Positions 13,088 to 24,758 of a stretch of 64,000 nt of DNA are shown in pieces. The notes under the pieces were generated by a model. It saw nothing but the letters and a program-made list of their open reading frames with translations. It was not told the origin of the DNA and did not search any database. Location: contig JALGYY010000009.1 in NCBI GenBank assembly GCA_025782575.1, positions 35,512-99,511 on the forward strand. Direction: 5' to 3'. Source of the stretch: a bacterium. GTDB taxonomy: Bacteria; Orphanbacterota; Orphanbacteria; Orphanbacterales; Orphanbacteraceae. Both the position numbers and the translations under genes were made by a program. The number at the start of each line of letters is the position of its first letter. Position 1 is the stretch's first letter.

Positions 13088-13630
13088 GTGGCACGCTGCT
13101 ATGTGATCCTGATAATGATGCTCCTGATCTCGCCGGCGGTCTCCCACGGCGTCAATCTGATAGAGGTCGACCTGGACGGATCGTTTGGAAATGGGGCAGA
13201 CACACTGGCAGTCCCCGAAGGTACACCGGTGACAATTACTATCTGGTTCGATGGGGAGGTAACGATCACTGCTTTCATCCTAGAAACGTGCGGCCTGGAC
13301 AGCATGAACATCACCCAGATCAATTATCTTGTTCCGGGTAACTGGTCCACCTCACCCCCGATCATCCAGGGAGACTGTGTCAAATTCGAGGCCGTCACGT
13401 TCAATTTGTTCACTCTCTTTTTGCCCTCGGCCGTTGCAGAGATTAAGTATACGGCGAACCTCGCCCCCGGTCTCTATCCGATCGTCGTGGATCCGAATCA
13501 ATCTCCCTGGTTTGACATCTCCGGAAGCGAGGTCATCGTCGACACTACGATCACAGGTTACCTTCTTGTAACCGAACCGACGAGCGTCTCCGAGGGTAAC
13601 TGGGGCGATCTAAAGCGCCTGTTCCGCTAA
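13088..13630 (+). CDS. Small secreted protein of unknown function
   Basis: 180 residues from a GTG start with AGGAG 6 nt upstream. MARCYVILIMMLLISPAVSHG is a signal peptide. The mature part is acidic and strand-rich with two Cys (ETCGLD, QGDCVKF) that could form a disulfide. NLAPGLYPIVVD and the general strand pattern recall cohesin/immunoglobulin-like domains of secreted FCB-group proteins. The C-terminus, TSVSEGNWGDLKRLFR, has a Trp-Gly and a basic tail and may be an anchoring or sorting tag; that is a guess. The body shows no recognised enzyme motif. It sits between a broken sorting domain and the candidate selenoprotein, in a small cluster of exported proteins. Confidence 0.7.
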   Translation: MARCYVILIMMLLISPAVSHGVNLIEVDLDGSFGNGADTLAVPEGTPVTITIWFDGEVTITAFILETCGLDSMNITQINYLVPGNWSTSPPIIQGDCVKFEAVTFNLFTLFLPSAVAEIKYTANLAPGLYPIVVDPNQSPWFDISGSEVIVDTTITGYLLVTEPTSVSEGNWGDLKRLFR

Positions 13631-13838: not shown

Positions 13839-13924
13839 TGAGTTTGTGCACCATTAGCCTTCCGGGTCTCCGTGCGGCATAGTGTCGCGCCTTCCCCCCG
13901 GCCCAGGAGCAACGGAGGGATGTC

Positions 13925-15016
13925 ATGACACACCTGCGCCGCCGTCCGTGGCAGATTACCGCTTTTTTTCTACTCTTTCTCGGTGCTCCGGGGATGTTCA
14001 ATCCGGCCCATGGTGCGGATCGCATTGTGGTCGTCGAGCATTGGAGCAACGTACTCTGAAGCGTCTGCGGCTCGGTGGATCCGAGCCTCAAGAATTGGGT
14101 CTTCTCCAAGACTGATGTTGTCTGCGTGGAATACCATATTCCGGCGCCCTACCCTGCGGACCTGTTTTATATCCTGAATGCACCGGCCCAAGACTATCGT
14201 GCCGACTACTATAATGTCCTGTCCGCTCCCAAGATAAAGTTTGACGGGCCCGGAAATCCCGGATTCGATTCCATCGCATGGGAAGCCAGGTACGCGGCCC
14301 ATAAGGCGGAAGGGTCGGACGCACAGATCGAGATCGAAGCGGACTATGTCCCGTCGAAAACGGGAGCGGGGTCCGGCGTTGTGAGCACGATGATCATTGC
14401 CGAAGCCTCGATTCCGGGCGACTGGCGCTTTCGACTCGTAGTAACAGAGAGTGATGTGGACACGCTCATTCCGGGTGGAAATGGGATCAATCCCCATCAT
14501 CACATCTTTCGCGAGTTTCTACCCGATACGCTGGGAACCGTGGTCAGTTTTCCCGGGCCCTACCCCGACACGGTAATCGTCAATCTCCCCTTCACGGTCG
14601 AGCCGGACTGGGTTGATTCCAACGTGGCGTTCGTCGGGTTTCTTCAGAATGAAACGACGAAAGTGATCGAGCAAGGTGGGGAGAGAAGGCTGAGAGATGT
14701 CTTCGTCGGGATCGAGGAAGGGGTGCCGTCGCTACAGACCGATCGCCTCGATCCGGTCCGTCCCAACCCGTTCAATCCGGTGGCGGCGATTTCGTTCAAT
14801 CTCGCGAAAGTAAGAAACGCCCGCGTAGTCGTCTTTGATGCGGCGGGGAGACGTGTGGCTGTTCTGCTCGACGAGCGTCTCCCGGCAGGAAACCACGAAG
14901 TCATATGGTTCGGCGAGACTTCCGGCGGCAACCAGGCACCTTCAGGAACCTATTTCGTGAGGCTGGAGAACCGGGAAGGTCCACCACTTGTCCGAAAAGC
15001 CGTTCTGATTCGATAG
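13925..15016 (+). CDS. Secreted thioredoxin-like protein, candidate selenoprotein (UGA = Sec)
   Basis: Reading from the ATG at 13925 (GGAGGG six nt upstream), a signal peptide ending AHG-AD is followed by RIVVVEHWSNVL, a TGA (14057-14059), then SVCGSVDPSLKNWV and an open frame to 15016: 363 codons with one internal TGA. The context matches thioredoxin/Omp28-like domains in which the TGA position is the first Cys of CxxC, giving U-S-V-C. SAPKIKFDG later supplies the cis-Pro loop. The last ~90 residues are a sorting domain (VRPNPFNPVAAISFN, GTYFVRLENRE, KAVLIR). A hairpin starts 9 nt after the TGA. Without recoding, only 44 residues or a signal-less 313-residue ORF (first ATG at 14075) would be made. 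TGA is a normal stop in neighbouring genes. A pseudogene or sequencing error is the alternative. Confidence 0.72.
14057..14088 (+). promoter_or_regulatory. SECIS-like stem-loop following the in-frame TGA
   Basis: TGA at 14057-14059, then GGCTCGG (14069-14075), loop TGGAT (14076-14080) and CCGAGCC (14081-14087): a perfect 7-bp stem with a 5-nt loop. UG/CA can extend it across one C-U mismatch. The loop starts 16 nt after the TGA and has G at its second and third positions. The E. coli fdhF SECIS has a loop containing GGU 17 nt after its UGA, so geometry and loop both fit recognition by SelB. Confidence 0.65.
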
Positions 15017-15095: not shown

Positions 15096-15284
15096 GCAGG
15101 ATGCGGACGTGCTCAGTCGATCTTTCAAGAATGCGTCATCAGATGCGAGAGGGTTTCCGCCGCAACCACAATGACCTTCCACGCCCGGCGGCCCGGGATC
15201 CTTGCCGGCGATCCACTTCTGGAAGAGCACCCAGGCGCCGCAGAGAAACGCCACGCCGCCCACCGCGATCAGATGCCTGATCAT
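15075..15284 (-). CDS. Small Cys-rich single-helix membrane protein of the Rnf operon
   Basis: 69 residues: one N-terminal membrane helix (LIAVGGVAFLCGAWVLF), then a short soluble tail with HCGCGG and a later Cys in ASCKKK. The ATG overlaps the rnfA stop by 4 nt, so it is translationally coupled and belongs to the Rnf operon. I do not recognise the family. By size, topology and cysteines it recalls NqrM, the small protein needed to mature the iron site between NqrD and NqrE; RnfA and RnfE share such a site. A similar metal-delivery role here is inference. Confidence 0.65.
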   Translation of the reverse strand: MIRHLIAVGGVAFLCGAWVLFQKWIAGKDPGPPGVEGHCGCGGNPLASDDAFLKDRLSTSASCKKKPRR

Positions 15285-15859
15285 GTGCTGCTGAACAGGC
15301 CGGCAAAACCCATGAAGGCCATGGAGAGTATGCCGGCGATTATGAGGTTCATGGCCGTCCCTTTTACGGCGGCGGGGATGTCGGAGAGCTCAGCTTCTAC
15401 TCTTAGTCCCGCCATCAGGACGAGTGCGAGAGTGAGTCCTGCACCGGCGCCGACCGCGAAAAAAATCCCCTCGACGAATGAGTAGGCCCGGTTGGTCTGG
15501 AAAAGGGCGAGGCCTAGAATGGCGCAGTTCGTCGTAATCAGAGGCAGGAAAATGCCGAGTGCCCTGAAGAGCGCCGGACTCAGTTTTTTGATTACCATCT
15601 CGACAAACTGCACCGTGCTCGCAATCACGACGATAAAGCTGATGAGCTGCAGATAAGGTGCATGGGGCAACACGAATGTGTTCAGTACCCAGGCGCATGT
15701 CGATGTGATGAGAAGCACGAACAGATTAGCGAGGCCAAGCCGAAATGCCGTATCAATCCGGCCCGAAACACCGAAGAAAGGACAGAGTCCCAGAAAATAG
15801 TAAAGGGTGAAATTGTTGATCACCATGGCGCTGATAAAAATCCAGACGAGTTGATTCAT
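15281..15859 (-). CDS. rnfA: Rnf complex subunit RnfA
   Basis: 192 residues, six membrane helices, normal length. FTLYYFLGLCPFFGVSGRID near the N-terminus and PLITTNCAILGLALF in the middle each hold one of the conserved Cys that, with the pair in RnfE, hold an iron centre across the membrane. It passes electrons through the inner membrane in the ferredoxin:NAD+ oxidoreductase. It overlaps rnfE at its start and the small Cys-rich gene at its stop by a few nt. Confidence 0.95.
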   Translation of the reverse strand: MNQLVWIFISAMVINNFTLYYFLGLCPFFGVSGRIDTAFRLGLANLFVLLITSTCAWVLNTFVLPHAPYLQLISFIVVIASTVQFVEMVIKKLSPALFRALGIFLPLITTNCAILGLALFQTNRAYSFVEGIFFAVGAGAGLTLALVLMAGLRVEAELSDIPAAVKGTAMNLIIAGILSMAFMGFAGLFSST

Positions 15860-16500
15860 CAGGCGGCCTTTCTGGCAGTCTCACTCGGGCGTTTGGCCCG
15901 GGCCTGTTTGATGGCGCCGAAGAGGAGCAGGATGAGACCGAGCATGATGAAGCCGCCGGGGGGAAGTACCATGATCACCCACGGTTCATAGTTCGGGCCG
16001 AAGAGCGGGAAGCCGAAGAACGATCCATTGCCGACGATCTCCCTGGCGCTCCCAAGGCAGAATAGTGCGAACAAGAATCCGGCAGACATTCCCATTGCAT
16101 CTGCCAGCGCCATTCCGACCGTGTTTCTGGATGCAAAAGCTTCCTGGCGGCCGAGGATCAGGCAGTTGACGACGATCAGAGAAATAAACGCGCCGAGTTC
16201 TTTGTGGAGCGCCGGCGCGAACGCTTTCAGTGTGAAGTCCGCCAGCGTTACGAACGTGGCGATCACGATAATATAAGTGGAAATCCGGACCTGTTTGGGG
16301 ATCACGTTCCGGAGGAGGGAGATCAGCAGACTGGAGCCGAGCAGGACGAACATCGTCGCCCCACCCATGGCGAGGGCGTTGATGGCGCTGTTCGTGACCG
16401 CCAGCATGGGGCACATTCCGAGCACCTGGACAAAAACAGGATTCTCTTTCCAGAGGCCCTTGGCAAATTCGGCGTAGGCTTGTGAACTATCCTTCGCCAA
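15859..16500 (-). CDS. rnfE: Rnf complex subunit RnfE
   Basis: 213 residues with six helices. GLWKENPVFVQVLGMCPMLAVTNS is the RnfE/NqrD signature, and SLIVVNCLILGRQEAFAS carries the second conserved Cys. RnfE is the pseudo-symmetric partner of RnfA, and the two form the membrane electron path. The start is TTG with GGAGG 5 nt upstream; it begins 1 nt after the rnfG stop. All Rnf genes from C to A are spaced for translational coupling. Confidence 0.95.
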   Translation of the reverse strand: MAKDSSQAYAEFAKGLWKENPVFVQVLGMCPMLAVTNSAINALAMGGATMFVLLGSSLLISLLRNVIPKQVRISTYIIVIATFVTLADFTLKAFAPALHKELGAFISLIVVNCLILGRQEAFASRNTVGMALADAMGMSAGFLFALFCLGSAREIVGNGSFFGFPLFGPNYEPWVIMVLPPGGFIMLGLILLLFGAIKQARAKRPSETARKAA

Positions 16501-16501
16501 C

Positions 16502-17125
16502 TCAACCTCCCTCGATCAGCGGGAGCCATTCCCGGCTCGCTTCATTGATGATCTTGACTACGGCGCGGGATGAAATCGTCGCTCCCGTGATGGCGTCTAC
16601 TTCGTTCGGCGCGGCACCGGTTCCATTCGGTACGAGCACGACCTCCGGTTTCGCGGCGAGTTCACGAAATTCGGCTACGAAATCGGCGTCTTTGAAAATC
16701 TTGTCACCCAGTCCCGGCGTCTCCCGGCTCTCCAGAATCTGCATGCCCGTCAGATTGCCTGACTTGGGATCGTAGCCGAACAGCAGATCGATGAAATCCT
16801 GAAACCCGATCCCTCTTCCCGGAATCGCATAGCCGATAATCTCACCCGACTCGTTTGTTGCGGCATAGATGCCCGCTTCTTCGCTCTCTTCGGGCGCTTC
16901 GGTAAGCCGGTCGTTTGAAACGACCATTCTTTTCATGTCCGCCGCCCCTGGAACGACTTCGAAGACCGCCCGGCGAAGTGCCCGGCGCTGATTCTCTTTG
17001 ATTCGGGGGAGGGTCGCTTCATAGACGGCTGCCAATGCGAGCCCGGAAAGCAGGCCGGCGAGCGTGAGGGTAAGCACCATCTTAACGAGGCTCACATCCG
17101 CCTGCTTCGGAACCGGCCGGCTCAT
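16502..17125 (-). CDS. rnfG: Rnf complex subunit RnfG
   Basis: 207 residues: one N-terminal membrane helix (VLTLTLAGLLSGLALAAVYEA), then the periplasmic FMN-binding domain. The flavinylation motif is DAITGATISS near residue 180, where the second Thr is the expected covalent FMN acceptor. GRGIGFQDFIDLLFGYD, where RnfG proteins usually read GYGG, and ESRETPGLGDKI are typical of RnfG/NqrC. It takes electrons from RnfD and the membrane iron site on the outer face. It overlaps rnfD by 4 nt. Confidence 0.95.
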   Translation of the reverse strand: MSRPVPKQADVSLVKMVLTLTLAGLLSGLALAAVYEATLPRIKENQRRALRRAVFEVVPGAADMKRMVVSNDRLTEAPEESEEAGIYAATNESGEIIGYAIPGRGIGFQDFIDLLFGYDPKSGNLTGMQILESRETPGLGDKIFKDADFVAEFRELAAKPEVVLVPNGTGAAPNEVDAITGATISSRAVVKIINEASREWLPLIEGG

Positions 17126-18144
17126 GATTTCTCCCTGCGTGGTCTGCCGAAGACGCGGGGTTGCACCGCTTTATCAATGAGAGGCGTGGCGGCATTCATG
17201 AGAAGAATCGAATACATCACCCCTTCCGGGAAGCCGCCGAAAACGCGGATCAGTACGACCAGAAAACCGATACCGGCACCGAAGATCCACGCTCCCCGCG
17301 GACTTAGTGGAGAGGTGACCGGATCGGTCGCCATGAAGACCGCCCCGAGCAGGAGGCCGCCCGACAGAATCATGAAGTGGGGCGGGGGGTAGGCGCTCGG
17401 GCTGACGAGATAAAGAATTCCGGCGAAAGCGGCTGTCGAAGCGAGGATCGCTACGGGAATTCTCCAGTCATATGTTCGCCTGAGGCCGAGCCAGAGACCG
17501 GCGAAGATCAGAATCAGTGCACTCGTTTCGCCGAGAGACCCGCCTGTGCTCCCGAACAGCAGATTCTGGAACGGCGTCGATTCTCCTGAGAATTTCATGA
17601 GCGCCAGCGGCGTTGCCGATGAGACGGCGTCCACGTCCATGTGCATGAACGGGGCGGCGAGAGTAGCCCCCCGTACCTGAAAGAACTGGCCGATTCCACC
17701 ATAGGGAGCCCAGGTGGTGAGAGCGGTCGGGAAAGCCGCCTGAAGAAACGCCCGTCCGACGAGCGCGGGATTAAACAGGTTGTGGCCGAGTCCGCCCCAG
17801 ACGAGTTTCCCGAGGCCCATTCCGACCAGACCGCCGACGACCGCCATCCAGAGAGGGAGACCGGGCGGGAGTGTGAGGCCGAGAAGCACACCCGTGAGCG
17901 CGGCGCTGCCATCCTTCAGTGAATGGCCCCGCTTGCCGTAGGGGGGAAAGAGCCACTCGGTACCCATGGCACCCGCCGTAGCCGCGGCGATCACCAGAAT
18001 GGCGCTCACGCCGAAGTACCAGACTGCTGCGAGTACGACGGGCGCCAGACCGAGAAGCACATCCCGCATCAATTTAGATGTAGTCAGTTCCCGGCGCAGA
18101 AAAGGCGCCGCCTCGAGAATAAGACCCGGTTCCCGTCCGATCAT
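17122..18144 (-). CDS. rnfD: Rnf complex subunit RnfD
   Basis: 340 residues, about nine or ten helices. The covalent FMN motif is visible as VDAVSSATPLALMK near residue 170 (Thr in SSAT). MGTEWLFPPYGKRGHSLKDGSAALTG and NPALVGRAFLQAAFP are conserved RnfD/NqrB segments. As the NqrB homolog it is thought to couple electron flow to Na+ or H+ movement. The ATG overlaps the rnfC stop by 4 nt. The order C-D-G-E-A is standard; only rnfB is displaced, to a site upstream of the large PFOR-like gene. Confidence 0.95.
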   Translation of the reverse strand: MIGREPGLILEAAPFLRRELTTSKLMRDVLLGLAPVVLAAVWYFGVSAILVIAAATAGAMGTEWLFPPYGKRGHSLKDGSAALTGVLLGLTLPPGLPLWMAVVGGLVGMGLGKLVWGGLGHNLFNPALVGRAFLQAAFPTALTTWAPYGGIGQFFQVRGATLAAPFMHMDVDAVSSATPLALMKFSGESTPFQNLLFGSTGGSLGETSALILIFAGLWLGLRRTYDWRIPVAILASTAAFAGILYLVSPSAYPPPHFMILSGGLLLGAVFMATDPVTSPLSPRGAWIFGAGIGFLVVLIRVFGGFPEGVMYSILLMNAATPLIDKAVQPRVFGRPRREKS

Positions 18145-19475
18145 TTCTTTCTGTTCTTCTTTCTAATAGCGGATTTGGCTACGCGGATGAGCTGCACGAT
18201 CGGGATGTTTGACGGGCATGTGTACGTGCAGGATCCGCATTCAATACAATCCATTACAAAGTACTCTTCGATTTCGTCCCATCGCTCGGCGTGCGCCAGT
18301 CTTCCGAAACGGGACGGATTCAAGAACGCCGGGCACGCCTCGAGGCACCGGCTGCATTTCACGCATGTGAATTCGGGGAGCCTGGATTGCTCCGCTTTCG
18401 TGAATACCAGAAGGCCGCTCGTCCCTTTAAGAACCGGTACGTCGATACTCATGAGGGGGAGGCCCATCATCGGGCCGCCGGCGATCACTTCACGCATGTG
18501 TTCCGTTATTGCTTCGCAGTGACTGAGCAAGGCCCGGATCGGCGTACCGATCGGGACGAGCAGATTGGCCGGCTGGCCGGTACCGGGGCCCGAGACCGTA
18601 ACGATCCGCTCGATAAGCGGAATGCCGTGATCGAAGTAGTCGGCGATCGCCGCCATCGTCGCGACGTTGTTTACGATTACCCCGACATCGAGGGGGAGTT
18701 TGCCAGAGGGGACTTCGAGATCGAAGAGCGCCTTGATGAGCATTTTTTCAGCACCTTGCGGATACTTGACGCGAAGAGGGGCGACCTCGATGTCTGTCCG
18801 GTCGCCGATCACTTTCTGGAGCGCCTTCACACCATCGGGCTTGTTCTTCTCCACCCCGATCACGGTCTTCGTCGCCCCGATCTTGGCTGCGAGAATTTCG
18901 GAGCCTCTCACAACACGCGCCGCCTCTTCGACCATCAGGCGGTGATCGGCTGTCAGGAAGGGTTCACACTCACATCCGTTAACGACGAGAGTCTCGATCT
19001 TCTTTCCGTCCGGCAATTTATATTTGACATGTGATGGGAAAGCCGCACCGCCCATCCCGACGAGCCCCGCCTCCTGCACGTGGGTGACGAACTCATCGAT
19101 CGTGAGCGATTCCCAGTCGATCGGTGGCTGGTCGGGGAGGAGCTGGGGATCGTACGGATCGGCATCGATCACGATCGACTCGAGCATCCTGCCGTCCGGA
19201 TGACGGCGTGGTTCGATCGCACGTACTGTTCCCGTCACCGGACTGTGAAGCGCGGTCGAAACATATCCTCCCGGCCGGGCGATCTTCTGACCCCGGCGGA
19301 CCGCCTCTCCCTTTCGCACGATCGATTGGGAAGGCGCCCCCAGATTCTGGCTGAGCGGGAGTACATAAGTCGCCACGAACGGTACGCGCTCGATTCGGAG
19401 CTCCGCAGTCTGTTCTTTATGATCGTCGGGATGGATCCCGTGTCGAAAACTGTTCGATCGAATCGTCAGACTCAA
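18141..19475 (-). CDS. rnfC: Rnf complex subunit RnfC (NADH/FMN side)
   Basis: 444 residues, typical length. The N-terminal barrel starts SFRHGIHPDDHKE. The NuoF-like nucleotide/FMN region shows GLVGMGGAAFPSHVKY and VNGCECEPFLTADHRLM. Two 4Fe-4S sites follow near the C-terminus: CVKCSRCLEACP and CIECGSCTYTCP. It is the peripheral subunit that exchanges electrons with NAD(H). The TTG start with GGAG 7 nt upstream overlaps the stop of the 1483-residue PFOR-like gene by 4 nt, tying that protein to the Rnf complex at the level of translation. Confidence 0.95.
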   Translation of the reverse strand: MSLTIRSNSFRHGIHPDDHKEQTAELRIERVPFVATYVLPLSQNLGAPSQSIVRKGEAVRRGQKIARPGGYVSTALHSPVTGTVRAIEPRRHPDGRMLESIVIDADPYDPQLLPDQPPIDWESLTIDEFVTHVQEAGLVGMGGAAFPSHVKYKLPDGKKIETLVVNGCECEPFLTADHRLMVEEAARVVRGSEILAAKIGATKTVIGVEKNKPDGVKALQKVIGDRTDIEVAPLRVKYPQGAEKMLIKALFDLEVPSGKLPLDVGVIVNNVATMAAIADYFDHGIPLIERIVTVSGPGTGQPANLLVPIGTPIRALLSHCEAITEHMREVIAGGPMMGLPLMSIDVPVLKGTSGLLVFTKAEQSRLPEFTCVKCSRCLEACPAFLNPSRFGRLAHAERWDEIEEYFVMDCIECGSCTYTCPSNIPIVQLIRVAKSAIRKKNRKK

Positions 19476-22400
19476 CTGGTTGCTCCGTTGTCGTTTGCGG
19501 CCGGTGTTTGACCGGCCAGCTGGACCAGCCTGTTCCGCAGCCTGTCAAGCATTTCGGACCGGGCCTTCTCATCGGCGGCTTGAATCTTCGCTTCGTATTC
19601 CCGTTTGAGCGAGGCGATTTCTCCCTTGTGCCTCGCGGCGATATCGCTCTCCGCTTCTTCGCGAACCCTCTCGGTGAACGGTGTCACCACGCCCGCGATC
19701 TCCTGGAGAGTGCGCCAGATCTGGAGACGGTTATCGGCAAGATCGACCACCGTGGCCGGAACATGCCATGTGTCCGTCGGAAGATCAGATCGATCATGCA
19801 GACGGAGCACAGGTACTTTTCCGGCGCGGTCACTATTGGATAGCATGATGAACTCACCGAGATCGATCGCTTCCCCGTCAGACTGTTCGAATGGCCTGAA
19901 GCCTCCGGCGAAACGGGCTTCGGTAAAGGCCCAGTGCGCCGGCGTCATGAGATCACCCGATTCTTCGCGAACCCAGCTCTCCTGCTCTGCCGGATTTCCG
20001 GTTAGATCGACCCGCACGCCGAACACGCCGCCGTCCGATGGATCGTAGCGGAAAAGAGGGAACGACCGTGTGCGAACGGCGATTTCCGCCTGCTTGACGG
20101 CGCCGTCGGTTGCGAAGCCGTGGCGCTCGGGATCAGGCGCGTGCACATGAATGAGCGCCGGGCCGTCGAACTGGACGGCGTCGGCCATGCCGGTCGCGAA
20201 GTGATCCCGATGGGCGATCGAAGTCTTCAGTACGAACGCCCTCCGCGCGGCAAGCGCGAGAAGTGCGAGATCCGATGCAGCCGGAATCGCCCGATCCACA
20301 TCGATCGCCGGCGCGCCGAGCACGACGACTTTGACCGGGAGATCGGTTCCGAGGAGAGCGAGCAGAGAATCGAATCCGTCGTTCCGCAGGTCCTCTTCAT
20401 CCAGCAGTACGAGAAGCGGCGCTACTTCGGGAAGGGGGGGGGGCTTGGGCGCTGCTGGTCTTATGCCGCGCGATCGTCCTCGCCTGGCCGCCCTCACCGG
20501 GTCTTTCACAATCTCCGCCGCTTCATCTACAAAGCGCCACTCTTCCGCGGCAATTCGCCTGTTGCTTTCGGCAAGCCCGCGCGCGACACTCCCCGCTCGT
20601 TCAGCGCTTACTACCGACACGGGGATTGAGAACGGATTGTCCGGGAATCTTCCTGCCCAGGCGGCCACACGATGGCCGGCGAGGAGAAGTCCGAACGGCG
20701 CTCTCGGAATCCCTTCGATTCCCTTCTCCAGTCGCCAGCGTGTCTCGGCAAGTCCCCGCGCCGTATCGACGAGCTTCTGCAGTGCCAGACCGTCCACGGT
20801 GCCGGCATCCGACGCACTCTCGATCCGGGCAGCCAGACTGGACAGATCGAAGTTGCTCTGGCCGATCGCTTCGATCCCTTCGGCCATCACATCGAGCTGA
20901 TCTGTCGGGAGGGCTTTGTACAGTGTCTCTCTGATTTTTTCGGAAAATCGGGCCTGCAGATCGGCGATCCGATCGATCTTCTCGGTGCGGGCGGCCCCCA
21001 GAACGGCAGCCGCCGATGCGAGGGCATGTCGAAGCGCGATCGCGCCGCCGCTTCCGGGCGTCGAGTGATCGCCGCTGATCATCGTATGACGATATCGCCT
21101 GGAAAGCATGGTCGCCGCTACAAATCCCGGTTCATCCGCTTTACGAATCTCTGCAATCACGGCAGTCGGAGTTTCGGGAACGCGCGCCACCTGGTCATGT
21201 TTCCGGCGTGCCTCGATTATCCGTTCGGCTGAGTCAGGTTGCAGCCGAAGTGCTCCCGGATCACAGACGGATGTGCAAACTCCGCAGCCCTTGCAGGCGG
21301 AGGGATCGATTCCGAGGAACAGCAGGTTGCCGGTCCCTTTGGAAGAGGCTTCAGGTGCAGTCCAGAGATGCTCGGTAACCGCCGCCGGAAGAATGTTCAC
21401 GGTTTCGGCTACAGCCGAGGCTGCCTCCTCGAGAGATTGCCGGCGATCTTCCTGAAACTTCGTTTTTGCAATGATCTTATTGAACGCTTCCTGAATCGCC
21501 GCCCCCACCGTGGGCGCGGCCTCCTCGCCTGCGAGCTCCTTCATCATGCCGGGAGCGAGTTTGGCGGCGATCATGCGGAGCGAGTCAACAGCGCGGCCCG
21601 CGGCTTTCGCTTCGCTCATCGCATGGTCCAGCACGGCGGACGGTTTCTGTGCGGCCACCGTGATCGCGCCATGGGGGCAGAAGGTCCAGCAGTTTCCGCA
21701 GCCCGTGCAGAGCGCGGTGTCGAAAGCCGGCATCGTCTCACGGGATGCCGACGTGTCATGAAATACAGCTGACATGGATGGAACGACGCCGAGCGTATGG
21801 GCCGGGTCGGGCGAAATCTCGTCTTCACCGGCATACGACGGACGGAACATGGTTTCATCGATGAACCGTGGAAGGCTCCGGAATGAATTGTCTTCACGCC
21901 CGAGTCCCCGAACCCATGGTGGGGCCGGAGCCGGCCCGGGAGCAGGCGACCGTTCCACTACGATCTTCTCGACCGTTTGTGCCGAGCCGAGGCCTCGGGT
22001 AAACGCCTCTGCCATCTCCGTCTGAAGCGAGTCTCCGAGCCCGCGGTTCAGATCCGCCAGTGCTCCGGTCAGTCGATTCGTATCGATACTTCGGGAAATC
22101 ATTTGAAGAGTGCTGAAGAGGGCACCGAGTAGGAACGGTTCGCGACTCTCTCTGGATTCGCCGGACGTGTCGGCCCGAAAAAATCGCACTTCTCTGTCCA
22201 GGCTGATTTTGGCGGTGATGCGATCGAGTGGGAGGATGTCGTCAACGAGCGCGCCGCCGATGGGGAGAAGAACCGCCCCTCCCCGGATGACGTTGCCGAC
22301 CGCCCCCGCAGCCGCCCCTTTCGGACTCGCGACAAGCAGGAGGTCGGCGGCTCTGTCGTCACCGGGATCGCGAAGCGTTTCATCACCGAAAGCGATCGTG

Positions 22401-23923
22401 TGCAGACTGTAGGGCGCCCACTCATATCGGCCTGACCCCGCGCGGTATCGAACGCTGCCGCCCCGGGCACGATGGATGAGCTCGGCCGCGCGGGTGGCGA
22501 GCCTGTCTCCACTCCCGTCCAGAGATAGAATCGAGATGACCGTCGATCCATCGGGTCGGGACGTTACGCTCTTGTCTAACGCGGTGATTCCCGTTTTCTC
22601 CACGCCGGGAAACGCCTTCCTGACCTGGTCGACTCTCCCCTGTCGTTTGGGGTACTTCCCTGTATCGGCGGCGAAATCAATGCCCAGATAGAACGGGCCG
22701 GAGCCACGCTTTTCAATCGACCGTATCAACTCGATCAGATCGGCCTGGCGTAGCGGCAGGCCACCGAGGCCGTAGATAGCGGAGTGAATCCGCGGCATAT
22801 CCCTGGCGCGCCAGCCGCGACGGTCACCCTTCGAGCCGTCGCCATGACGCTCGAGTTCAAGCGCTCGCTGTGCTGCTCCTCGAATCGCCTGCGTCAGGGA
22901 GGGTTCCTGCGACAGCGGTGAATCCGAAGGTTCGAGCACGACCACATGCTGCTTTCCTCGAAGGAGATCAGCAAGCTGAGCACCTGGGAACGGCCGGACC
23001 GCATGAATGCCGGCGACTCCTGTTTTCTGTTTGATGGAACGAAGATGGGTAGCGGCGGCTTCCGCCACTTCCAGAGCGGCACCCCGGGCTACGATCACGA
23101 GCTGCGCATCTTTCAACTTTTCGATGGAGATCGCCTGAACGGGACGATCGAAAAACCGGCTCACTTCCTCGAAGGCGCCGGCAAGAACGGACTCGAATGG
23201 ATCGAAAACGAAAGGACGTCTGCCGGATTCCCCATGACCGCCGAGGTCCGTCGCCTGGGAAGCGGCGATCAGCACGGGCACATCGGGGTCGAACCACCGG
23301 GGGACGCGGCGCCGGTTCGGGCCGAAGAGGAGTTTCTGCTCCGCAGTTGGTGATACGATCTTGTCTTCTGCGGTGCCGAGCAGTGTATCCACTTCAGCCG
23401 CCGCCGGAAGCTTCACATCCTGGAGAGCCGTTCCGGTGGCGTCTCCATCGATCAGAACGACGACGGGGAGGAGAGCATTCTCGGCTGCCAATCGGGCGAC
23501 GAGATTCAAGTCGAACACATCCTGCACATTTCCCGCATGCAGCACGACGGCACCGGCATCGGCTGAGAGCGCACTGTCGAAACGGTCGCCCGATGGAGCG
23601 TTTCCACGGGTGGAAGTGATCGCATTGATGACGATCGGGAGCCGGCGATGAGCAGCCTGGCGCCACACATGAAGGACCTCGGCCGATCGGGCGTTCTCCA
23701 GCAGGACCGTTACACGCGTACCACCGAGTGCGGCTCCGATCGCACGGTCGCCGTCGATGTACAGCCCCTGATCGGTATCGGGGCCGTTGTTCCCTGCCGC
23801 GAGAGCGTGAGCCAATCGGAGCGCTTCCTGACCGCTCGACAGAACGGCATGGCTCGAAGCCCCCCCGCCGGGACGTCTTCTCATTTCATGGAGCTCTGCA
23901 AGTAACTCATTGACCGTGTGCAT
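19472..23923 (-). CDS. Giant PFOR-like protein with 2x[4Fe-4S], lacking catalytic motifs
   Basis: 1483 residues from the ATG at 23923 (AAAGGA upstream, 7 nt after the rnfB stop); a longer frame to 24034 would overlap rnfB. The order resembles pyruvate:ferredoxin oxidoreductase. Residues 1-200 are a domain-I-like fold without the YPITPSS site, and ~260-350 a transketolase-C-like domain (HAVRPFPGAQLADLL). About 450-600 is gamma-like. A dicluster ferredoxin domain has C739, C742, C745, C749 and C877, C880, C883, C887. A domain-VI-like region runs to ~1320 (SFPLFRYDPSD), followed by a coiled-coil tail. The proximal-cluster CAGC segment reads SGDHSTPGSGG and the TPP motif GDGWAYDIG reads LLDEEDLRNDGF. 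Thiamine chemistry is therefore unlikely; an electron-transfer or docking subunit between Kor and Rnf is my inference. Confidence 0.85.
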   Translation of the reverse strand: MHTVNELLAELHEMRRRPGGGASSHAVLSSGQEALRLAHALAAGNNGPDTDQGLYIDGDRAIGAALGGTRVTVLLENARSAEVLHVWRQAAHRRLPIVINAITSTRGNAPSGDRFDSALSADAGAVVLHAGNVQDVFDLNLVARLAAENALLPVVVLIDGDATGTALQDVKLPAAAEVDTLLGTAEDKIVSPTAEQKLLFGPNRRRVPRWFDPDVPVLIAASQATDLGGHGESGRRPFVFDPFESVLAGAFEEVSRFFDRPVQAISIEKLKDAQLVIVARGAALEVAEAAATHLRSIKQKTGVAGIHAVRPFPGAQLADLLRGKQHVVVLEPSDSPLSQEPSLTQAIRGAAQRALELERHGDGSKGDRRGWRARDMPRIHSAIYGLGGLPLRQADLIELIRSIEKRGSGPFYLGIDFAADTGKYPKRQGRVDQVRKAFPGVEKTGITALDKSVTSRPDGSTVISILSLDGSGDRLATRAAELIHRARGGSVRYRAGSGRYEWAPYSLHTIAFGDETLRDPGDDRAADLLLVASPKGAAAGAVGNVIRGGAVLLPIGGALVDDILPLDRITAKISLDREVRFFRADTSGESRESREPFLLGALFSTLQMISRSIDTNRLTGALADLNRGLGDSLQTEMAEAFTRGLGSAQTVEKIVVERSPAPGPAPAPPWVRGLGREDNSFRSLPRFIDETMFRPSYAGEDEISPDPAHTLGVVPSMSAVFHDTSASRETMPAFDTALCTGCGNCWTFCPHGAITVAAQKPSAVLDHAMSEAKAAGRAVDSLRMIAAKLAPGMMKELAGEEAAPTVGAAIQEAFNKIIAKTKFQEDRRQSLEEAASAVAETVNILPAAVTEHLWTAPEASSKGTGNLLFLGIDPSACKGCGVCTSVCDPGALRLQPDSAERIIEARRKHDQVARVPETPTAVIAEIRKADEPGFVAATMLSRRYRHTMISGDHSTPGSGGAIALRHALASAAAVLGAARTEKIDRIADLQARFSEKIRETLYKALPTDQLDVMAEGIEAIGQSNFDLSSLAARIESASDAGTVDGLALQKLVDTARGLAETRWRLEKGIEGIPRAPFGLLLAGHRVAAWAGRFPDNPFSIPVSVVSAERAGSVARGLAESNRRIAAEEWRFVDEAAEIVKDPVRAARRGRSRGIRPAAPKPPPLPEVAPLLVLLDEEDLRNDGFDSLLALLGTDLPVKVVVLGAPAIDVDRAIPAASDLALLALAARRAFVLKTSIAHRDHFATGMADAVQFDGPALIHVHAPDPERHGFATDGAVKQAEIAVRTRSFPLFRYDPSDGGVFGVRVDLTGNPAEQESWVREESGDLMTPAHWAFTEARFAGGFRPFEQSDGEAIDLGEFIMLSNSDRAGKVPVLRLHDRSDLPTDTWHVPATVVDLADNRLQIWRTLQEIAGVVTPFTERVREEAESDIAARHKGEIASLKREYEAKIQAADEKARSEMLDRLRNRLVQLAGQTPAANDNGATS

Positions 23924-23930
23924 CGATCCT

Positions 23931-24758
23931 TTACCCTTCGACGGTCCCTTCGAACTGTCCGTCAGGTACCCATTGGATGGCTCCCGTGGGACAGCGGAAC
24001 GTGGCATTCGGCGCCGCGAGATCGGTCCGGGCATACTCGATCACCGGCAGGTTATTGTCCATAACGATCAGCCCGTCATCCGCGTCCATGGCGCAACGCC
24101 CGCAGGCATCGCAAGCTACCGTGCAGAGGTTTGTGGCGTCCTCGCCTGCCAGGGGGGAGGCGCACTGAACGAGCAGCGGCATGGTCATCGGGACAAGCTC
24201 GAAAATATCCCTCGGGCATGCTTCCACGCAGTCGCCGCAGGCCGTACAAAGATCGGGGTCCACCACCGGGAGCCCGTTGCTGTTCATTCGAATCGCGTCG
24301 AAATCGCAGGCCACATCACAGTCGGCGAGGCCGAGGCAGCCCCAGGGACATCCTTTGCCTCCGCTCCCGACAACTGCAGCGGCGCGGCAGCTCGTAAATC
24401 CTTCGTATTCGGCGATCTGCTTCGCCTGGGCGCGACCGCCGGCGCAGTGAAGCCGGGCGACGATCTTGACTCTGGCTCCGGCTTCGACGCCGAGAAACCC
24501 GGCCACTCGATCTACATTCTCGGGACTCGAGACGGTGCAGCCGCTTGGCGCCGATTCTCCGCCGATCAATGATTCGGCAAAGGCGCGGCATCCTGGCGAT
24601 CCGCACGCGCCGCAGTTCGTCCCCGGCAACATATCGACAAGGGGCTCGAGCCGTGGATCTTCGTAGACACGGAGAAACTTGTATGCCACTGCCAGAATTA
24701 CGCCGAAAAGAGTGGCCAACCCTCCCATGATTGCGGCGGAGAGAAGCACGTCGTTCAC
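23931..24758 (-). CDS. rnfB: Rnf complex subunit RnfB (ferredoxin entry)
   Basis: 275 residues from a GTG at 24758 with AGGAG 9 nt upstream; an ATG at 24803 would overlap the previous gene. One N-terminal helix (AAIMGGLATLFGVILAVAY) is followed by the Fe-S domain with GTNCGACGSPGCRAFAESL and SGC. Then come several ferredoxin-like clusters: CRAAAVVGSGGKGCPWGCLGLADC, CTACGDCVEACP, and a third set CTVACDACGRCAMDADD. RnfB accepts electrons from reduced ferredoxin at the cytoplasmic face. It lies between two PFOR-like genes instead of next to rnfC, which suggests these neighbours deliver its electrons. Confidence 0.94.
   Translation of the reverse strand: MNDVLLSAAIMGGLATLFGVILAVAYKFLRVYEDPRLEPLVDMLPGTNCGACGSPGCRAFAESLIGGESAPSGCTVSSPENVDRVAGFLGVEAGARVKIVARLHCAGGRAQAKQIAEYEGFTSCRAAAVVGSGGKGCPWGCLGLADCDVACDFDAIRMNSNGLPVVDPDLCTACGDCVEACPRDIFELVPMTMPLLVQCASPLAGEDATNLCTVACDACGRCAMDADDGLIVMDNNLPVIEYARTDLAAPNATFRCPTGAIQWVPDGQFEGTVEG

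Follow-up and report, generated by a model that had tools for sequence, protein, structure and literature searches.

A gene interrupted by a single TGA codon

The gene analysed here lies in a 64,000-nt stretch of contig JALGYY010000009.1 (assembly GCA_025782575.1, phylum Orphanbacterota), hereafter called the window, and its reading frame contains one in-frame TGA. The first-pass annotation of this DNA had described an otherwise intact gene preceded by a ribosome-binding site. Direct reading confirmed both points: the frame 13925–15016, from the ATG at 13925 to the terminal TAG at 15014–15016, is open except for the TGA at 14057–14059, and a GGAGGG motif is found before the ATG, at 13914–13919. 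When TGA was translated as U, a protein of 363 residues was obtained, containing the sequence ...EHWSNVLUSVCGSVDP..., in which the U opens a UxxC motif. Comparison with relatives, together with the gene content of the genome, indicates that this gene very probably directs the insertion of selenocysteine (Sec) into a thioredoxin-like protein. The features of the locus are listed in Table 1.

Table 1. Features of the TGA-interrupted gene (window coordinates)
Feature	Position	Strand	Basis
Shine-Dalgarno-like GGAGGG, 5 nt ahead of ATG	13914..13919	+	read directly
Complete coding frame with single inner TGA; product of 363 residues with Sec predicted at 45	13925..15016	+	relatives align on both sides of TGA
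Signal-peptide-like start, RRR then hydrophobic stretch, residues 1-30	13925..14014	+	judged by eye; low AlphaFold2 confidence there
Thioredoxin-like subdomain, about residues 33-130; U45 starts a helix, P102 precedes a strand	14021..14314	+	AlphaFold2 model, fold match to HBP35 5y1a
TGA codon, predicted selenocysteine 45, opens UxxC	14057..14059	+	sequence, alignments with relatives
Cys 48, closing UxxC as the second active-site residue	14066..14068	+	invariant in 18/18 aligned rows
Predicted bacterial SECIS hairpin GGCUCGG / UGGAU / CCGAGCC, 7-bp stem	14069..14087	+	folding, bSECIS model fit
Pro 102, cis-Pro position of thioredoxin fold	14228..14230	+	invariant in alignments
Omp28-like beta-sandwich, about residues 131-262	14315..14710	+	
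C-terminal FlgD-Ig / T9SS-type tail, PNPFNP ... KAVLIR	14750..15013	+	Pfam FlgD_ig; profile matches with T9SS tails of solved structure

Relatives carry Cys or TGA at the same position

A profile of the Omp28-like part of the protein was run on seven genomes of the phylum and matched at 19 places. Eight of them contain one TGA, which in all eight opens the (U/C)xxC motif, and the other 11 have Cys at this position. In the source genome itself, a single Sec gene is accompanied by two paralogs with Cys (L032 and L040). Among 119 database relatives, CxxC occupies the TGA column in 100. Across both sets, Cys or TGA is found there in place of the non-Cys residue that the first-pass annotation had named as contrary evidence. 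Nine of the 119 start elsewhere, and the remaining 10 start at DP or one to two residues earlier, directly behind UxxC.

The window gene is itself given this start in its public prediction (P0002), which comprises 313 aa and begins at a downstream GTG (14075). If this were the true start, the upstream part would be untranslated or a mere leader. Besides P0002 and the predictions for the 10 relatives, this reading finds a parallel in HBP35 of Porphyromonas gingivalis, which, according to an excerpt of PMC2907840, also yields cytoplasmic forms that are truncated at the N-terminus and lack the thioredoxin domain. However, a protein made from the GTG would have neither a signal peptide nor the first strand of its fold nor the active-site motif. 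The sequence ahead of the GTG is conserved between this gene and its Cys-bearing relatives, and a start at the GTG is very improbable. The ten public relatives that most resemble the window gene lack just this N-terminal stretch, in which the signal peptide and the active site lie.

A wider profile search of 386 genomes gave matches in 117 of them. Among the 150 matches listed, 47 contain one inner TGA (spread over 31 genomes and 19 family codes), which opens UxxC in 47 of 47 cases (eight from the phylum, 6 plus 33 from elsewhere), and no inner TAA or TAG was present in any of the 150. Scans of genomic and viral contig collections with window protein queries revealed no full-length relative, and only two tail matches were obtained, in Krumholzibacteriota and Krumholzibacteriia contigs.

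One base change would be enough to give a lone stop in an otherwise open frame, and the TGA might accordingly be a real stop in a decaying gene, or a sequencing error. Against this stand the single column shared by all the listed TGA genes, the lack of inner TAA or TAG codons, and the comparison of the two closest genes, L024 and L025. Between these, the nonsynonymous divergence (dN) is well under the synonymous divergence (dS) on both sides of the TGA (dN 0.026 and dS 0.26 over the 16 codons before it; dN 0.037 and dS 0.38 over the 60 codons after it), and both stretches look selected as protein. A pseudogene or an error is, hence, highly improbable.

Several Omp28-like genes are clustered at each of three loci (G110:C186:34477-44392, G064:C1:4777708-4780392 and G107:C19:60381-63238), and in the G110 and G107 clusters Sec genes are mixed with TGA-free, Cys-type genes. 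This arrangement suggests a putative multigene redox set.

Selenocysteine machinery

The source assembly (4.88 Mb in 49 contigs, 95% complete) was searched for the Sec pathway, as had been proposed earlier, and all of its components are present: selA, selB and selD are above the NCBIfam cut-offs and a tRNA-Sec with the anticodon tca is above the Rfam cut-off. A tRNA-Sec above the cut-off was found in six of the seven genomes of the phylum. Outside the phylum, selA is above the cut-off in 23 of the 25 TGA-bearing genomes versus 14 of the 28 in which only Cys matches are listed (Fisher p = 0.001). With TGA recurring at one column and associated in this way with selA, a stop that arose by chance or through misassembly is very unlikely, and Sec is favoured over a general suppression of UGA.

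It was also considered whether a suppressor or near-cognate tRNA might insert a residue other than Sec (Trp or Cys) at the UGA, Cys being the alternative residue in relatives. TGA behaves as a normal stop locally, however; as the earlier annotation had pointed out for the neighbouring genes, it terminates many frames, namely 18 of the 31 window open reading frames (ORFs) of at least 600 nt, which were picked mechanically and overlap little. The full Sec pathway in the genome and the co-occurrence of the TGA form with selA across genomes also speak against such a readthrough, which we regard as most unlikely.

The gene for SelD in the source genome (L018, G000:C46:271946-272869) also contains an in-frame TGA, near position 1531 (...KAGUAAKHP...), and SelD is therefore a predicted selenoprotein itself.

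A candidate SECIS hairpin

Immediately behind the TGA, where a SECIS-like hairpin had been claimed, a predicted bacterial selenocysteine insertion sequence (bSECIS) was located. Its loop (UGGAU) lies 16 nt after the UGA and has G at position 2, and the folding energy of the hairpin is −12.8 kcal/mol. The hairpin stays within each of the four bSECIS limits given in a passage of PMC13188914: a loop 16–37 nt after the UGA, a loop of 3–9 nt, a G within the first two loop positions and an energy of −7.5 kcal/mol or lower. Background rates were taken from the window: of 18266 positions, 4.8% have hairpins within the −7.5 limit and 0.44% have hairpins as stable as −12.8 kcal/mol. Behind 69 long frames terminating in TGA, two pass the former value and one reaches the latter. 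An Rfam scan of the window at the gathering threshold gave no matches.

The hairpin is kept in L024 and L025. The third base of the Gly49 codon and the second base of codon 54 co-vary as C-G, U-A and A-U, residue 54 being Ser, Asn or Val. These paired changes are suggestive of a maintained hairpin, but are not decisive.

Fold, sorting tail and predicted export

The solved fold closest to the AlphaFold2 model of the window protein is that of HBP35 (PDB 5y1a), with which it shares the two-domain Omp28/HBP35 fold at 12% identity and which carries Cys instead of Sec. Foldseek rows ranking under HBP35 (proteases, transglutaminases) had TM-scores of about 0.15–0.25 and were discounted. The cis-Pro loop described earlier was borne out, P102 being invariant in two alignments (51 and 18 rows). 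With Omp28 itself (Pfam PF11551; PDB 2r2c) the protein scores under the Pfam cut-off (25.4 vs 34.9), which is reached by two (L042 and L047) of ten scanned Sec relatives. Agrobacterium protein AGR_C_4864 (PDB 2axo) matches the two N-terminal domains only, with 17% identity. Homologs from Candidatus Fermentibacteria / Sabulitectum (P0124, P0132 and P0141) have the two-domain layout of the window protein with 24–28% identity and CxxC in place of UxxC, and some of these Cys homologs are named "T9SS type A sorting domain-containing protein", T9SS standing for type IX secretion system.

The C-terminal tail is above the Pfam FlgD_ig cut-off (31.7 vs 27 bits), and, when the PDB was searched by sequence with one protein, the rows obtained were FlgD (three) and a single disulfide isomerase (E 0.61). 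The T9SS translocon protein SprA is encoded in the source genome with its neighbours (525.4 bits). Outside the phylum, FlgD_ig or Por_Secre_tail was above a cut-off in four of six Sec relatives scanned, and a YPNP/NxPNPF-like tail was recognised by pattern in 14 of 33 further ones, some of whose frames run off the fetched DNA. The sorted layout is thus wider than the phylum without being universal.

A secreted-looking ORF upstream of the gene (window 13088–13630) ends in ...GNWGDLKRLFR. A similar short C-terminal pattern, ...ATWGGIKRLYK, closes L054, an Omp28-like protein with Sec from a distant genome; the pattern sits on different proteins.

Export and redox function are inferred from the fold and the tail. 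In the proposed mechanism, the hairpin at 14069–14087 would recruit SelB with Sec-tRNA, so that the ribosome decodes UGA as Sec. The N-terminal signal would then carry the protein across the inner membrane, from where the FlgD-Ig/T9SS-type tail would guide it to the cell surface via a translocon of the SprA type. Delivery to the surface by the type IX route is a reasonably probable prediction from the sequence. A role in disulfide redox chemistry is likely by analogy with HBP35, a thioredoxin-active surface protein of Porphyromonas that is exported via the Por/T9SS system and whose Cys pair is stated, in an excerpt of PMC2907840, to be needed for insulin reduction in vitro. The U45/C48 pair may, in the same manner, reduce or exchange disulfides of envelope or surface proteins.

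Several results weigh against this interpretation. The covariation score of the hairpin, calculated on three sequences only, was equalled in 73 of 500 column shuffles; the 54-nt stretch gave z = −1.4, and 12 of 200 shuffles folded equally well. The ungapped SECIS model was fitted neither by L034–L038, the phylum's five more distant Sec genes, nor by the selD of the source genome, and only 3 of 6 distant Sec genes in one set and 13 of 33 in another passed the bSECIS model at −7.5 kcal/mol. Taken alone, the SECIS evidence is modest. Regarding the machinery, tRNA-Sec is under the cut-off in the TGA-bearing G001 (a fragmented assembly, 82% complete, in 830 contigs), selA is under it in 2 of the 25 TGA-bearing genomes outside the phylum, the selA match of G109 passes but holds internal stops, and selA also occurs in half of the Cys-only genomes. 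The tail scores just under the TIGR04183 cut-off (21.3 vs 23) and under that of PF18962 (18.1 vs 27). Sec at the head of the UxxC motif in an exported, tailed thioredoxin-like protein, as claimed in the first-pass annotation, passes the computational checks on the sel genes, the Cys column and the recurrent TGA.

Relationship to known selenoproteins

The first-pass annotation had also presented the protein as new, no described selenoprotein exported with a YPNP/FlgD-Ig sorting domain being known. This holds only in part, since an Omp28-related selenoprotein has already been modelled in NCBIfam (NF045500, "Omp28-related selenoprotein"). It appears as "Hypothetical protein GOS_C", with UxxC, in a table excerpted from a 2026 review (PMC13188914), and an extract of the 2008 report of GOS_C gives 74 selenoprotein sequences from ocean samples with a thioredoxin-like fold and UxxC (PMC2398784). 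Like the window protein, NF045500 has an Omp28-like thioredoxin fold and a UxxC motif with Sec first, and the match extends over profile positions 34–274 of 377. In contrast, the score of the window protein is 32.3 bits against a cut-off of 200, and it is therefore not a member of NF045500 by that model. Profile positions 266–376 align with parts of L055 and L066 that are dockerin and TSP3 repeats according to Pfam, and the NF045500 tail accordingly appears to differ from the FlgD-Ig tail of the window protein. What stands of the novelty claim is this distant, differently tailed branch.

Members of NF045500 were also sought in sets of 193 and 9 genomes, which together include the seven phylum genomes and 25 other TGA-bearing genomes, and were rejected, none of the genomes of either set (0/193 and 0/9) having a match above the cut-off. 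The open-access literature yielded no paper joining Omp28 with a selenoprotein, a scope that shows no absence from print, and within the same literature a selenoprotein together with FlgD or type IX secretion occurred only in papers unrelated by title, while selenocysteine and T9SS co-occur in two papers, with a single mention in each.

By its sequence, the window gene belongs to a divergent branch of the Omp28-like selenoproteins that has a FlgD-Ig tail and falls under the cut-off of the existing model. In a quick tree of 65 rows, it groups with L024, L025 and nine truncated relatives in a single set (support 100). At least five Sec/Cys changes are needed among the rows of known state, and at least two are forced by the starred branches alone; several rows are long-branched, and gain and loss of Sec are not distinguishable in this tree.

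Genomic surroundings

On the minus strand, window 15281–24034 was judged by eye to hold an RNF-type electron-transport cluster, beside a 1520-aa pyruvate:ferredoxin-oxidoreductase-like fusion. A PADLOC scan gave no match, a promoter scan found none, and two terminator-like sites were detected on the minus strand, a number within chance.

Implications

What is new is the FlgD-Ig-tailed branch, together with the sign that exported Omp28-like selenoproteins extend far past NF045500. Standard annotation would shorten such TGA genes, and the one curated model fails to reach the window branch. The idea that there are cell-surface selenoenzymes forming a large class, for the most part unannotated, of Omp28/HBP35-type Sec thioredoxins, many of them with T9SS-type tails, from at least 19 bacterial families here, is on balance slightly favoured; such a class would be hidden because gene callers restart after UxxC and drop the signal peptide and the active site. 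Selenium would render the attacking residue a better nucleophile and would ease its recovery after oxidation. If the protein is surface-sorted, a strongly reducing, recoverable redox residue would be placed outside the cell, and which donor re-reduces it becomes the question.
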